Position numbers and translations under genes: made by a program. Of a stretch of 64,000 nt of DNA, positions 3,031 through 39,711 are shown piece by piece; within the stretch, counting starts at the first letter, position 1; every line of letters begins with the position of its first letter. Origin of the DNA: Prosthecobacter sp. (GTDB lineage: Bacteria; Verrucomicrobiota; Verrucomicrobiia; Verrucomicrobiales; Verrucomicrobiaceae); contig NZ_JAQSEA010000029.1 of NCBI RefSeq assembly GCF_029946185.1, positions 1 to 64,000 of the forward strand. Direction: 5' to 3'. A model generated the notes under the pieces. It worked only from the letters and a program-made list of their open reading frames with translations. It ran no database searches and was not told the DNA's origin.

Positions 3031-5034
3031 ATGAGCTTTGCCCATCCACATCTGCTCTGGTTCCTGCTGATCATTCCCGCGCTGGTGGGAATGAAACTGC
3101 TGGTGGATGCACATGGCACCAAGGCAGAACGCCTGTTCACCGCGGCGCGTCTGCGGACGACTCTCATCATTGGCCGCTCTCGGTGGCGGTCATGGTTCGT
3201 GTACGCTTTGTATGTCATGGCCATGGCCTGTCTCCTCGTCGCTGTTGCCCAACCGCGCTGGGGCGAAGAAAAACTCGAGATTCCCGACAAGGGCCGCAAC
3301 ATCTTCATCGCCATCGATACCTCGCGTTCCATGCTTGCGCGAGACGTGCCACCGGACCGCCTCACGCGGGCAAGACTGGCTGCCCATGACCTCGTCATGG
3401 AACTCGCCGGAGAACGTGTCGGTCTGCTGGCCTTTGCCGGCCGCGCCTACCTTCAGGCACCGCTCACGACTGATCATGACGCCATCATCGAGTCATTGCT
3501 GGCCTTTGACCACACGATCATCGAGTGGGGGGGGAGCAATCTGGCCGACCTGCTGGATGTGACCCTGCGTGCGATTAAAAATCTACCCAAGAGCAATTAC
3601 GCGTTGGTTGTTTTCAGTGACGGTGGAGATGCGGACGCGAACCTCGCATCTTACATCCAACGCCTCACAGCGGCGGGTGTCGTTGTCGTCACGGTAGGTG
3701 TCGGCACTGCTGACGGCATGTTCATTCCAGATCCTGAAATAGAAGGTGATTACATCCGGGACGAGGCCGGCAATGTGGTGCTCTCAAAACTGCAAAGCGG
3801 CGTGCTACAGCAGCTGGCCAGCGCCACTGGCGGACGCTTTCTTAAACTTGATGCCCAGCCACTCAGCCGCCAGTCCATCCAGCCCGTGCTTGACCGGCTG
3901 ACCGAGCAGGAGTCCGCCAACCGGCAGACTTCGCGGCCGATTGAGCGCTTTGCCTGGCCACTGGGTCTGGGTATATTCCTTCTCATGCTTGCCTGGATCA
4001 TCAGCGCCCTGCCCCGCCCTGCCGCACGCCCGGTCATCCTGGTACTGGCGGTGGCCACCTTTGCGTCTGCACCTTCTGCGCAGGCCGCAGGTCCGTCAGA
4101 CTTTCTGGCATCCATGTTTCAATCCAGCGGGCCCACCCCGGAGGATGCGCTCAAAGCACTTGCGAGCGGGGATTTTAAAAAGGCCCGTGATCTCTACGGC
4201 AAGCTGCTGGAACGAGAGGATTTCGACGCGCATTCCCGCGATGAACTTCTCTACGGTCTCGCCACGGCAGAGCATGACCTCACCAACTACGATGGCAGCG
4301 TCAAGAACTTCAGCGAAGTGCTCCACACAGAGGACAAGTCACTGCGCACACGCGCTCATCGCGGCCTCGGTCAGACGCTCTATGATCAAGGGGTGCGCGG
4401 CCTGCAGGAGCAGCCAAAAATCACCCTTCAACGCTGGACCGATGCGCTGCGTCATCTTGATGCAGCACTGGAACTCGATCCTGAGAACAAGGAGCTACGC
4501 GAGAACCGAAATCACGTGGATAAAATGCTCGCCCAACTGCGCCAGATGATGAAGCAGTTGGAGGAAAAACAGGGCCAAAAAGGTGACAACGGCCAAAAAG
4601 GTCAGAAGGGGCAAAAAGGCGACAAGGGCGAAGGCCAGGAAGGTGAAGAAGGCGAGGAGGGGGACGCTGGCAAGCAAGGCAGCGACCCGGACGGCCAAGG
4701 AAAAGCCAAAGAGCCAAAAGAAGGCAAGGGCGAAAAGAAGGAGGATGATGACGGCATTGGCGGCAAGGATGCCAAAGAACTGCCCGAAGGACGGCTCCAA
4801 GCCGCTGGCAGTGAGCCCGGCGAAAAAGAAGGCCAGCAGGGCAAAGACGGCCAGAAGCCTGGTGGGGACGAGGATAAAAAAACGGCTAAAGCCATTCCCT
4901 CTGATCAACGCAATCCACGTACGGGTTATACCCCCGGCGAAGCAGAAGGCTATCTCCGTCAATACATGGATGAGATCACTACGCCGCCGACCAACCGCTA
5001 CCACACCCCGCCGCCTAACAAGAAGGACTGGTGA
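3031..5034 (+). CDS. batB: BatB-BatC fusion: VWA domain plus TPR repeats and collagen-like tail
   Basis: A 667-residue protein. Residues 8-24 and 56-73 are membrane helices; a VWA domain follows with metal site DTSRS at 96-100; two more hydrophobic segments lie at about 310-352; TPR-like helices cover roughly 360-505; the rest is very hydrophilic. The last part starts with Gly-x-y triplets (GQK, GDN, GQK, GQK, GDK), turning into acidic and lysine-rich sequence. In many genomes BatB (VWA) and BatC (TPR) are separate, so this is a fusion. It starts five bases after batA. The low-complexity tail is an unusual extension; the protein presumably anchors a periplasmic envelope-stress complex. Confidence 0.85.
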   Translation: MSFAHPHLLWFLLIIPALVGMKLLVDAHGTKAERLFTAARLRTTLIIGRSRWRSWFVYALYVMAMACLLVAVAQPRWGEEKLEIPDKGRNIFIAIDTSRSMLARDVPPDRLTRARLAAHDLVMELAGERVGLLAFAGRAYLQAPLTTDHDAIIESLLAFDHTIIEWGGSNLADLLDVTLRAIKNLPKSNYALVVFSDGGDADANLASYIQRLTAAGVVVVTVGVGTADGMFIPDPEIEGDYIRDEAGNVVLSKLQSGVLQQLASATGGRFLKLDAQPLSRQSIQPVLDRLTEQESANRQTSRPIERFAWPLGLGIFLLMLAWIISALPRPAARPVILVLAVATFASAPSAQAAGPSDFLASMFQSSGPTPEDALKALASGDFKKARDLYGKLLEREDFDAHSRDELLYGLATAEHDLTNYDGSVKNFSEVLHTEDKSLRTRAHRGLGQTLYDQGVRGLQEQPKITLQRWTDALRHLDAALELDPENKELRENRNHVDKMLAQLRQMMKQLEEKQGQKGDNGQKGQKGQKGDKGEGQEGEEGEEGDAGKQGSDPDGQGKAKEPKEGKGEKKEDDDGIGGKDAKELPEGRLQAAGSEPGEKEGQQGKDGQKPGGDEDKKTAKAIPSDQRNPRTGYTPGEAEGYLRQYMDEITTPPTNRYHTPPPNKKDW

Positions 5035-10054: not shown

Positions 10055-10196
10055 TGCACACACTATGCCCCAGAGCGGTGTTGTCTCAAGCTCCCACACG
10101 CACCACGCGCCTGCGACTGCGTTTTAGTACGCCGGATTTGCGCTGAGGGCGGTGACTGCTTGCCGGAGGGCATGGATGCATGGCAGAGTTTGAGCC

Positions 10197-35407: not shown

Positions 35408-37732
35408 TTAGAAGATCACTGTCAAAGCCACACGGCCATTGATGCCGGGCTGGGTGTAACGGTCGAGCTGTGAATTGTTAGCGTCGACACCACGCACGTT
35501 CTGATACAGCCAGTATTTTTGATTCGTGAGATTGTAGAGACCCGCGCTGAGGCTGACATTTTTGGAGAGCTGCCAGCGGCCGACGAGATCAACCGTGAGA
35601 GCGCTTGGCGTCTTGAACTGATTGATGCCGCCGGAAGTGGATTCGGTGGAACCCTTGTGCGCAAAGCAGGTCGAGATCAGTTCCACCTGCCAGGTTTCAC
35701 GACGATAGCGCAGACCGGTGACGAGCTTGAAGGGATCCACACTCGCGAGGGGCTGCTTGTTCTGACCATCCCAGCCCTGGCTGTAGGCGGCATTGGTGAA
35801 GATGCCGAAGTTGCCCAGCGACTCATGAATGAAACCGAAGGTTGTCTCCCCTTTGAATTCGAGGCCGTAAATTTCTGCCGAGGCGAGGTTGGTGCTCTGA
35901 TAAATGATCGGGTTGCCAGGAGCTCCGGTGCCGCCGACCTGCATGAAGCTGTTGATGAAGTTTTCGTAGTGATTGTAATAGCCTGCGAAATTCCACGAGG
36001 ACTCTTTTCCTTTGCGACGAACGCCGATTTCGAAGCTGTTGCTGGTTTCTTTTTTCAGGCTCGGATTGGGCACAGTCTGATAGCCGAACGCAGTATTGGT
36101 GATGGTGGCGTTCAGCTCTTCGCCACTCGGGTTGCGGAAGCCGTTCGAATACTGGAAGTAAGCACTGTGCTCCTCGTCAATCTTGAAGAGGTAGGAAAGC
36201 TTTGGAGCGAGGGCGAACTGATTGAAGTCCTGAGGCGCTCTGCCGGCGCTGGCTCTCAGGTAGAGCGGATCTGAATGCGTGGCCACGTCGTAGTATTCGG
36301 CACGCAGACCGGGAGTGAGGCGGTGACGCAGATTCCTGCCCCAGGCAATCTCATCCTGGATATATACACCCACACGGGAAGTCCGCGTGTCTGGCATGTC
36401 CTTCAGCGGGTAGGTGTCCGGCGTGATGACGTTTGTCACTGTGTTCGTGGTGAAATTGTACTCTGTGGCGTCACGAACACGACGTGAGTTGGATGTGACC
36501 AACTGGGTGCCGTAGGCCAGCGTGTGATTCAAAGCGCCTGTTTTAAACGCCTTGGTGAAGTTGAAGTTCGTGCCGATGTGATCCTGACGATAAAGGTAAT
36601 CGCGGATGCGCAGGCGGTCCTGAGGAGTGGGGGTGATGCGGTCGCGATCCTCGACCTGGTGCTCCGGAGTCTCCGAAAGCTGATAGTACATGTTCCAAGT
36701 CAGAGTGTCGAAAATATAACGGAGGCCAGTGGCGTCATACTTGTGCTCCAGGCTGAAGCGCATGCGGCGCAGATCGTCGTTCAGCAGCAAGGAGTTCACA
36801 TTGTAATTAAACCCTGGTGCAGCCACCACCACACGACGCGCACTGACGATATCGTTGTCACTGGAGCGTTCGAGGTACTCACCGGTCAGCTCAAAGCGAT
36901 GACGAGCAGAAGGCTTCCACACCATTTTGGCGAGCCAGTTGTTCACACTGTAGGTGCTGGGATCTGGCTGCACAGCGCCGCGGTTGTCGACCTCGTGTCC
37001 GTCGCGGCGGGTGTAGTGGAGCAGGAACTCCACATTGCCGGCACGCTGCGCCATGCTGATGGTGTTGCTCCAGCTAGAGTCGGCGCTGTCATAGCGTGTG
37101 GTGAGGCGGGCCACAGAGTTCAGGCCGCCGGGCGACATCGCCAGCAGGTCTTCAGGATCGATGGTGGTGAAGGAAACCACACCGGCAAGCGCGTCACTGC
37201 CATAGAGCGACGAGGCAGCATTTTTGAGGATTTCCACTTGCTTGAGGGAGTCCACGTCCACGAAGTCACGACCGACGTTGTATGAGCCACCAAAGGTGAA
37301 CTGATCTGCCTGGCGGATGCCGTCAACGGTCATGAGGACACGGTTGCCATCGAGACCACGAATGTTGATGCTGGAAGTGCCAGCGCGGGAGTTGGCGGCA
37401 GGGCCAGTACCACCGACACCGAAAGGAACGCTGACGCCGGGCTCATAACGTGCGTAGTCGCGCATGCTGGTGGCGAGGGAGAAAACGCTGGCATCTTTAT
37501 CCAGCACGGTGACGGAGGCTGGAACATCCGCGCCTGACTGTTCGCTGCGGGACGCAACGATGACAACTTCAGGAAGCACGGCACCACCGGCTGAATTCTG
37601 CGTCTTGGCTGCTTTTTTCGCCAAAGCATTGGTGTCTTGTTCGGTCTTGGGCTGCTCCTGGGCCGCCAGCGGGAGGCCGCAGGCCAGCGCTAAAAATGTG
37701 AGTGTGTGCAATAATGCGGGAGGTGGTTTCAT
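35408..37732 (-). CDS. TonB-dependent outer-membrane receptor, heme-receptor-like
   Basis: A 774-residue receptor with a signal peptide (residues 1-24). The plug domain follows LPEVVIVASRSEQSG and contains SINIRGLDGNRVLMTVDGIRQ and LKQVEILKNAASSLYGSDALAGVV. The barrel holds both boxes typical of heme receptors, FRNPSGEEL (FRAP box) and VPNPSLKKE (NPNL box). The histidine usually found between these boxes is missing. It ends in Phe. Its neighbour is a HemS-type protein, which supports heme or hemoprotein as ligand. The upstream gap carries a candidate operator at 37826. Confidence 0.85.
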   Translation of the reverse strand: MKPPPALLHTLTFLALACGLPLAAQEQPKTEQDTNALAKKAAKTQNSAGGAVLPEVVIVASRSEQSGADVPASVTVLDKDASVFSLATSMRDYARYEPGVSVPFGVGGTGPAANSRAGTSSINIRGLDGNRVLMTVDGIRQADQFTFGGSYNVGRDFVDVDSLKQVEILKNAASSLYGSDALAGVVSFTTIDPEDLLAMSPGGLNSVARLTTRYDSADSSWSNTISMAQRAGNVEFLLHYTRRDGHEVDNRGAVQPDPSTYSVNNWLAKMVWKPSARHRFELTGEYLERSSDNDIVSARRVVVAAPGFNYNVNSLLLNDDLRRMRFSLEHKYDATGLRYIFDTLTWNMYYQLSETPEHQVEDRDRITPTPQDRLRIRDYLYRQDHIGTNFNFTKAFKTGALNHTLAYGTQLVTSNSRRVRDATEYNFTTNTVTNVITPDTYPLKDMPDTRTSRVGVYIQDEIAWGRNLRHRLTPGLRAEYYDVATHSDPLYLRASAGRAPQDFNQFALAPKLSYLFKIDEEHSAYFQYSNGFRNPSGEELNATITNTAFGYQTVPNPSLKKETSNSFEIGVRRKGKESSWNFAGYYNHYENFINSFMQVGGTGAPGNPIIYQSTNLASAEIYGLEFKGETTFGFIHESLGNFGIFTNAAYSQGWDGQNKQPLASVDPFKLVTGLRYRRETWQVELISTCFAHKGSTESTSGGINQFKTPSALTVDLVGRWQLSKNVSLSAGLYNLTNQKYWLYQNVRGVDANNSQLDRYTQPGINGRVALTVIF

Positions 37733-37867: not shown

Positions 37868-38164
37868 TCATGCCGCCGCGCTCATCGCGACAGGACTGCG
37901 GAGCAGCAGCACATCAGCCGCCTCCGCCGCAACGAGGCGCAAGGGGCAGGCGGCGGGCACACGCAGGCGCTCGCCGCAACGCAGGAGTACTTCGGCGCCG
38001 TCGAGATAGGCGGCGGCTTCGCCGAAGGTGATAACCACGGCGGTTTCATTTGCCGCGCAAGATTCAAAACATGGACATCGGCGATCAAGTCCCAGCAGGT
38101 GGGCCTGTACACAGTCGTTATAAAACAGGCAGCGCTGGTCGGCCTCTGTGAGGAGACGGCTCAT
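37868..38164 (-). CDS. Small cysteine-rich protein in heme locus, unknown
   Basis: A 98-residue protein. Five cysteines cluster at residues 12, 18, 30, 32 and 36 (C-x5-C-x11-C-x-C-x3-C), a possible metal or Fe-S site; the C-terminal half is a beta-type region rich in Ala and Val. It overlaps the upstream 64-residue gene by ATGA and lies 135 bases before the TonB receptor on the same strand. No family recognised. Coding status is supported by coupling and the conserved-looking cysteine spacing, but not proved. Confidence 0.5.
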   Translation of the reverse strand: MSRLLTEADQRCLFYNDCVQAHLLGLDRRCPCFESCAANETAVVITFGEAAAYLDGAEVLLRCGERLRVPAACPLRLVAAEAADVLLLRSPVAMSAAA

Positions 38165-38355: not shown

Positions 38356-38374
38356 GCGTCAACGCTTTGGCTGG

Positions 38375-38396
38375 CTTGACTAATACTGCCGCTGGT
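38375..38396 (+). promoter_or_regulatory. Heme-locus motif, site 2 (divergent promoter region)
   Basis: Core AATACTGCCGCTG on the plus strand, matching site 1 at 15 of 22 positions. It sits 100 bases before the HemS-type start and 19 bases before the 64-residue gene on the other strand, so it could serve either. Confidence 0.5.
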
Positions 38397-38496
38397 TTGC
38401 GCATGGCGAGGTGCAGCGCATTTGACCGCTAGATTTCGTCAAAGGAACGAAAGCAAGGTCTCCTGACGCGGGCGTATCAAGCGGCCTACCAATCTC

Positions 38497-39514
38497 ATGG
38501 ACCCGACTCATTCCACCCACCGCATCGCCTTTAGTTTCGCACCTGGCATCTTCGACATCGAACGCATGAGGTCGGAGATGTGGTGTGATGATGAGGACTG
38601 CGGCTCTGCGTATGTGCAGCTCGACGCGGACTGGTCGCGGCTGCTGCCAGCGCTGGGCAAAATAGGATTGCTCATGGCATGTGCGCCCTCTCACCCGGTC
38701 ACTGCAGCGGAGGCACTCAAGGCTGCGCGGTTTGAGAAGGTGCCGGAGTCTCCCGACTGGATCTGCCTGGAGAGCGGAATGGAGATCTGTCAGGCGAAGC
38801 TCGGTGGTGTGCTCGCCACACTGGAACCGCTGGAAGGCGGGCAGCAGACTGCGGCGCTGCAATTCTTTGACCGCAGTGGCGAAGGCTGCCTGAAGCTGCT
38901 CGTCACGAACCGCAGCGACCTCGCTGCATTTGAACATTTGGTGAGCCGGCATGCCATGCCGCCGCACATCTCTCCCTTTGGGCAAACTGGTTCTGCTGCT
39001 GCGCTGACATTGGGTGCAGCAGAGCCGGACGCCCAGGCCGTGCGCAGTCTCTGGGGGGGGACTGCGCCGTACGCTGCCGACGAGCACCTTCCCAGGTCTG
39101 GAAGGTGTCTCGCGGCGGCGTGCGTTAGGCTTGGCCGGACTGCGGCATGCGTGGCAGATCCGAGAGACAGCCGTGATGCCCCTCATCCGCGCCATGTCCC
39201 TGGCGGATGCGCCGCTGGGCATTGGTGTGAGAAATGATGCTGTGTTTCTGCCGGTGGGCATGTATCCGACCCACTGGGCGGACTGCTGCTGCGGCACGAC
39301 GTTTTTCGCGGGAACATCACAACTCACGCTGCGGCGTGAACTGAGCCAGGCAGAAGTCTGGGTGACACGCTTCGAGGTGCGCGGTCAGGAATCTCTCTGC
39401 CTGGAAATCTATGACGATGCCGGGAATTTTCGCGCTGGGCTGGGCCTGCGGCCGGAGGCGATGCCCACGCACCACATCCAGTGGAAGCACTGGCTGCGTG
39501 AGGCGGCGTGCTGA
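38497..39514 (+). pseudogene. hemS: HemS/HmuS-type heme-utilisation protein with frameshift in a G8 run
   Basis: Two frames joined at the run of eight G at 39053-39060 give one protein of about 338 residues, the usual HemS length. The first half has SAYVQLDADWSRLLPALGKIG and AALQFFDRSGEGCLKLLVTNRSDLAAF; the second has FPGLEGVSRRRALGLAG, PLGIGVRNDAVFLPVG and SLCLEIYDDAGNFRAGLGLR, all placed as in the two HemS repeats. Reading seven G instead of eight restores the frame (LWGGLRRT). HemS proteins bind heme in the cytoplasm and help degrade it or pass it on. As written, translation would continue into 58 unrelated residues. Real mutation, slippage-based switching or an assembly error are all possible. 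Confidence 0.8.
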
Positions 39515-39550
39515 AGTAGTGGGGGGAAACTGTAGCGTCCAGAACCAGAA

Positions 39551-39564
39551 CGAGCTGAAGCTCG
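39551..39564. repeat. REP-like hairpin, third copy
   Basis: CGAGCT/AGCTCG inverted repeat with a 2-base loop, followed by GGGAGTACTTTT. The flank resembles the CTACTTTGCT flank of the elements at 17110 and 17228, so it is probably a diverged copy. Confidence 0.35.
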
Positions 39565-39573
39565 GGAGTACTT

Positions 39574-39711
39574 TTATTTCATGGCCCGATGCACCTGCTC
39601 CAGCGCGAGGATGGCGGAAATCATTTTCATGGTATTTGGAGTCTCATCACCGCGTTTGTCATGCACAACCCAGATGTGGGGGAAAAGTGGCAACGCGGCT
39701 GTTTTTGAATA
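39574..39711 (-). pseudogene. Possible remnant of an unknown gene (C-terminal end)
   Basis: One minus-strand frame reads about 45 residues with protein-like composition (FPHIWVVHDKRGDETP, then MISAILALEQVHRAMK) and then a stop at 39574. It has no start codon: an in-frame stop lies just upstream. It could be the tail of a decayed gene. I cannot name the family, and chance is possible. Confidence 0.25.

Follow-up and report, generated by a model that had tools for sequence, protein, structure and literature searches.

A HemS-like gene split between reading frames at a run of eight Gs in a Prosthecobacter genome

Results and Discussion

In the window, the whole 64,000-nucleotide stretch of Prosthecobacter sp. 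DNA analysed here, a HemS-like gene is broken at a run of eight Gs. We propose that this is an ordinary recent slippage frameshift that has knocked out a dispensable haem-handling gene, a reading to which we give a probability of about 0.58 and in which the reality of the run length, its origin by slippage, the inactivity of the product and the role in haem handling are what we infer. The window comes from the 74.5-kb contig C29 of a draft assembly (G000) with 317 contigs and 6.19 Mb in all, whose closest relatives are the sister metagenome bins G012 and G030.

The broken gene and its neighbourhood

The run at 39053-39060 (+ strand) consists of exactly eight Gs. The N-terminal half of the gene (38497-39060, + strand) begins with an ATG at 38497, and its frame continues past the run to a stop ending at 39237, giving 246 codons of which the last ~59 are out of the family frame. 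The C-terminal half (39062-39514, + strand) lies in another frame, which is open across the G8 run as far as 39514 and contains no additional stop; no second lesion was found in the gene. A single relative of 337 aa from G012 spans both parts, its residues 1-189 aligning to 38497-39066 (90% identity; 90-91% for the N-terminal half) and its residues 185-336 to 39053-39508 (94%). Each half has a Pfam match to the HemS/ChuX domain, the first to PF06228 (2.7e-6) and the second to PF05171 (0.018, under the cut-off); neither half is matched in NCBIfam. The break falls at residue 185 of 337, and the two halves joined give ~337 aa, the length of the closest relatives. These data confirm that both halves are one HemS-like protein divided between frames at G8; the earlier note, which had described a HemS-type gene in two parts meeting in different frames at this run and regaining about 338 residues when joined, was correct to the base. 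The product of the upstream frame would comprise the N-terminal domain followed by ~59 unrelated residues and would be inactive. No second HemS copy was found in the window genome, so the HemS-like gene is single-copy.

The region directly upstream of the gene (38360-38496, + strand) has a mean column identity of 85% with G012 and G030, and because it is so well conserved in these two bins the promoter region is probably intact. Adjoining the HemS-like gene in divergent orientation is an intact gene for a TonB-dependent haem/haemoglobin receptor (35408-37732, - strand; TIGR01786 at 2.2e-114 and TIGR01785 at 3.2e-104, both above cut-off). Between the two lies a small Cys-rich ORF of 98 codons (37868-38164, - strand) without a match in Pfam or NCBIfam, and the order of receptor, Cys-rich ORF and HemS-like gene is kept in G012 and G030. 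At locus L021 of genome G011, where a counterpart of the Cys-rich ORF also stands beside the receptor, periplasmic-binding and ABC proteins, TonB receptors and a PepSY protein are encoded near the HemS-like gene. The TonB receptor and the L021 neighbours support, by context only, a role in the use of haem or iron. In the relative at another locus, L020, a flavodoxin gene (PF00258, 2115-2618) is directly upstream of the HemS-like gene, and its product is a possible electron donor.

Relation to characterised HemS proteins

A profile of the intact relatives matches the chains of Yersinia enterocolitica HemS, Escherichia coli ChuS and Pseudomonas aeruginosa PhuS at 1e-11. A fold search with a model of the intact G012 relative ranked PhuS, HemS and ChuS first (E 1e-12 to 1e-15); this AlphaFold model was built from five sequences with a mean pLDDT of 51.5, and only the ranking of its PDB matches, not its geometry, is used here. 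Besides these profile and fold matches, the protein shares with HemS, ChuS, PhuS and HmuS two features that mark the family, namely two tandem HemS/ChuX domains (PF05171) in a length of ~340 aa and an association with haem uptake genes, here the adjacent TonB haem receptor and, at L021, the ABC parts. In characterised members the axial haem ligand is a His where the C-terminal domain begins (His196 in HemS, His193 in ChuS and His209 in PhuS; PMC6018153). This His was found in none of the aligned relatives: unlike in HemS and ChuS, the position of HemS His196, which falls in an ungapped stretch of the alignment, is occupied by Leu, with Arg instead in the relatives furthest removed. The product is thus predicted to be a divergent two-domain protein, HemS-like in fold and context but lacking a residue that defines the characterised proteins. 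Judged from gene context, its role is probably the binding or handling of intracellular haem behind the TonB haem receptor, and a HemS-like clade without the usual haem-ligand His is of interest for biochemistry.

Two sequence features were observed in this verrucomicrobial clade (38497-39514 and relatives L103-L120). A stretch (R)SLPxxxFPG is conserved at the axial-His position, and the C-terminal domain has a CxCG motif that is specific to the clade, kept in most of its members, and sets it apart from HemS, ChuS, PhuS and HmuS. A further difference, confined to the window genome, is the broken state of the gene.

Origin of the tract and selection on the gene

The HemS-like gene is present in 18 of 68 family genomes, compared as one genome per species, and its carriers include Prosthecobacter bins, a Verrucomicrobia bin and Brevifollis gellanilyticus. 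Only in the window genome is it split, the match in one of the 18 (G071) ending at a contig end. Comparison of the run in sisters, a check that the earlier note had suggested, gave a shorter tract and an unbroken gene: G012 and G030, whose N-terminal halves are 91% and 70% identical to that of the window gene, both have G7 at the identical site. The other alignable relatives have no G tract; in them the codon that separates the conserved Trp from the conserved Gly specifies Ser, Lys, Asn or Asp. We propose that the tract arose once, incidentally, in the common ancestor of the three sister species, as a by-product of a Trp-Gly-Gly-Leu stretch written with G-rich codons, and that one of the three species then gained one base (G7 to G8) by replication slippage. 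Slippage on a short G tract is an ordinary event and in principle reversible, and here it would have knocked out the gene in the window lineage. With the intact G7 version in the sisters, slippage, already named in the earlier note, is the probable origin of the break. Around the tract, 8-9 of 9 codons are synonymously conserved versus 66% overall in the gene, and this high local conservation, together with the persistence of G7 in two sisters, might be taken to mean that the tract itself is conserved and would then count against its being incidental; several other windows of the gene are as conserved as the tract region.

Both halves are, by sequence comparison, under purifying selection. Between the window genome and G012, dN/dS is 0.042/0.242 for the N-terminal half and 0.025/0.267 for the C-terminal half. 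When changed codons are polarised with G030, the window branch has 10 synonymous and 4 non-synonymous ones in the N-terminal half and 6 and 2 in the C-terminal half; the G012 branch has 7 and 3, and 11 and 3, respectively. These counts suggest no relaxation of selection yet on the window branch. The purifying selection on both halves implies that the break is recent: selection acted on the gene until a short time ago, and continues today if the G8 length is a misreading.

That last proviso introduces the chief rival, an error of consensus or assembly, in which sequencing, or a consensus over mixed strains, gave the wrong run length for an unbroken gene. The earlier note had raised such an error, and we retain it as a less probable reading. 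It is favoured by the draft state of the assembly (317 contigs), by the G7 read in both sister bins and by selection on both halves that resembles selection on an intact gene. Against it stand at least 29 other tracts of G8-G11 that are in frame inside ORFs of the same assembly, and the ~50 kb syntenic with G012, where no further homopolymer was seen to cause a clear frameshift. A systematic homopolymer error is therefore unlikely, and since the assembly shows no general error of this kind a real mutation is likelier, a local error keeping about one chance in four.

The census of homopolymers behind these statements used a coding-frame score, a simple codon log-odds trained on the window's long ORFs, which leaves runs in weakly scoring stretches unclassified. 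The window genome has 79 exact G8 runs; 78 were scored for coding frame on both sides and 23 of these were in frame inside an ORF, and the window run is the only G8 run in the genome seen to break a gene. Six other runs flagged automatically as shifts turned out on inspection to lie at the end or start of a gene or to be in frame. Longer runs were retrieved 42 times (27 G9, 12 G10 and 3 G11, none longer); six of them are in frame, and one further apparent break lies on contig C14. There (L125, C14:4850-4859), a gene assigned to no family seemingly changes frame at a run of ten Cs, and no orthologue of it was found in 37 genomes. In an alignment of 31 homopolymers of at least six bases with G012, only the HemS-like G8 shows a clear, uncompensated change of length within a gene that the sisters carry intact, and the break is the single clear homopolymer frameshift in the ~50 kb of synteny. 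A second frameshift candidate, near window position 10100, was rejected: the part shared with G012 is, by eye, a ClpS-like protein intact in both genomes, and the remainder is non-coding. The window contains two G8 runs versus 2.47 expected from shuffles, and a G8 tract at 3527-3534 is in frame. A G8 run is thus ordinary by chance; that the single clear coding frameshift in ~50 kb should fall on one is unlikely by chance.

Comparison with phase-variable loci

The earlier note had raised possible phase variation. In true phase variation the G tract would be kept as a contingency locus switching a haem-handling protein in subpopulations. Such an evolved switch is not supported: the tract is short, most relatives do without it, and no contingency-locus signature is seen in the genome. 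We consider true phase variation unlikely. It has in its favour that the same tract reads off in one species and on in two sisters, and that the Neisseria meningitidis haem acquisition genes hmbR and hpuA are switched by poly-G within the ORF, with predominant tracts of 9, 10 and 13 Gs and many lengths among isolates (PMC3786947). The present gene is like hmbR and hpuA in belonging to a haem/haemoglobin iron pathway and in having a poly-G in the ORF whose length sets the frame. Unlike these outer-membrane receptor components, the HemS-like product is predicted to be cytoplasmic rather than a surface antigen, and its tract has two lengths, G7 and G8, among three species instead of many among isolates. 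The homopolymer lies within the ORF and sets its frame, as in contingency genes, but G8 here and G7 in the sisters are below the cut-off of at least nine Gs used in a Neisseria phasome study (PMC5953494). Maintenance of the tract among orthologues was not found, since it occurs only in the window genome, G012 and G030, and it stands in mid-gene. The number of G8 runs in the window equals chance, and in the genome the retrieved G8, G9, G10 and G11 runs (79, 27, 12 and 3) are below the ~280, 80, 23 and 6 expected under independence at the 57.1% G+C of the window, which argues against a set of long tracts. Among the papers searched, none linked Prosthecobacter with phase variation.

Another parallel is the G7 tract of meningococcal siaD, which switches at less than 1e-5 and was judged a chance tract not selected for mutability (PMC5953494). 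Like siaD, the HemS-like gene has a short G tract at which slippage, of low rate in siaD, would inactivate it; unlike the siaD tract, for which length switching was seen within the species, the HemS-like tract is known from one genome per species. Nothing indicates that the length of the tract was selected for switching. The case is a warning: in a genome of 6 Mb, chance alone is expected to give a gene broken by seven or eight Gs in a row, and such a break is not by itself evidence of phase variation. It would gain in importance if the tract were seen to change length often in clonal cultures. That a verrucomicrobium of free-living habit has its only HemS-like haem-handling protein, from a clade without the haem-ligand His, turned on and off by poly-G slippage is in our view decidedly unlikely; if true, this would extend phase variation to a cytosolic step of haem use and beyond host-associated bacteria, to which the known switches of this kind belong.

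A highly improbable alternative is bypass, in which transcriptional slippage or ribosomal frameshifting at G8 would yield some full-length protein. Because both frames are open across the run, a shift there would meet no stop, and the purifying selection on both halves would also agree with it. However, the sisters encode the protein in a single frame, which leaves no conserved basis for recoding, and programmed bypass was dropped as a main reading; moreover, in E. coli and Buchnera the runs that undergo transcriptional insertion are A/T runs, and G/C runs were found not to be prone to it (PMC5574713).

A repeat downstream of the gene

Just downstream of the HemS-like gene, at 39545-39575, is a palindromic repeat of ~30 bases with the core GAGCTGAAGCTCGGGAGTAC, which is REP-like and sometimes paired. 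With up to two mismatches, the repeat has 41 copies in the window genome, 34 in G012, 31 in G030 and 23 in G033, and none in G011. Less than 1 kb from one copy (C14:2915-2934), at L125 of the window genome, is a gene for an IS200-like Y1 transposase (PF01797, 5e-10; positions 2-1246 of L125, - strand), possibly a REP-associated transposase.
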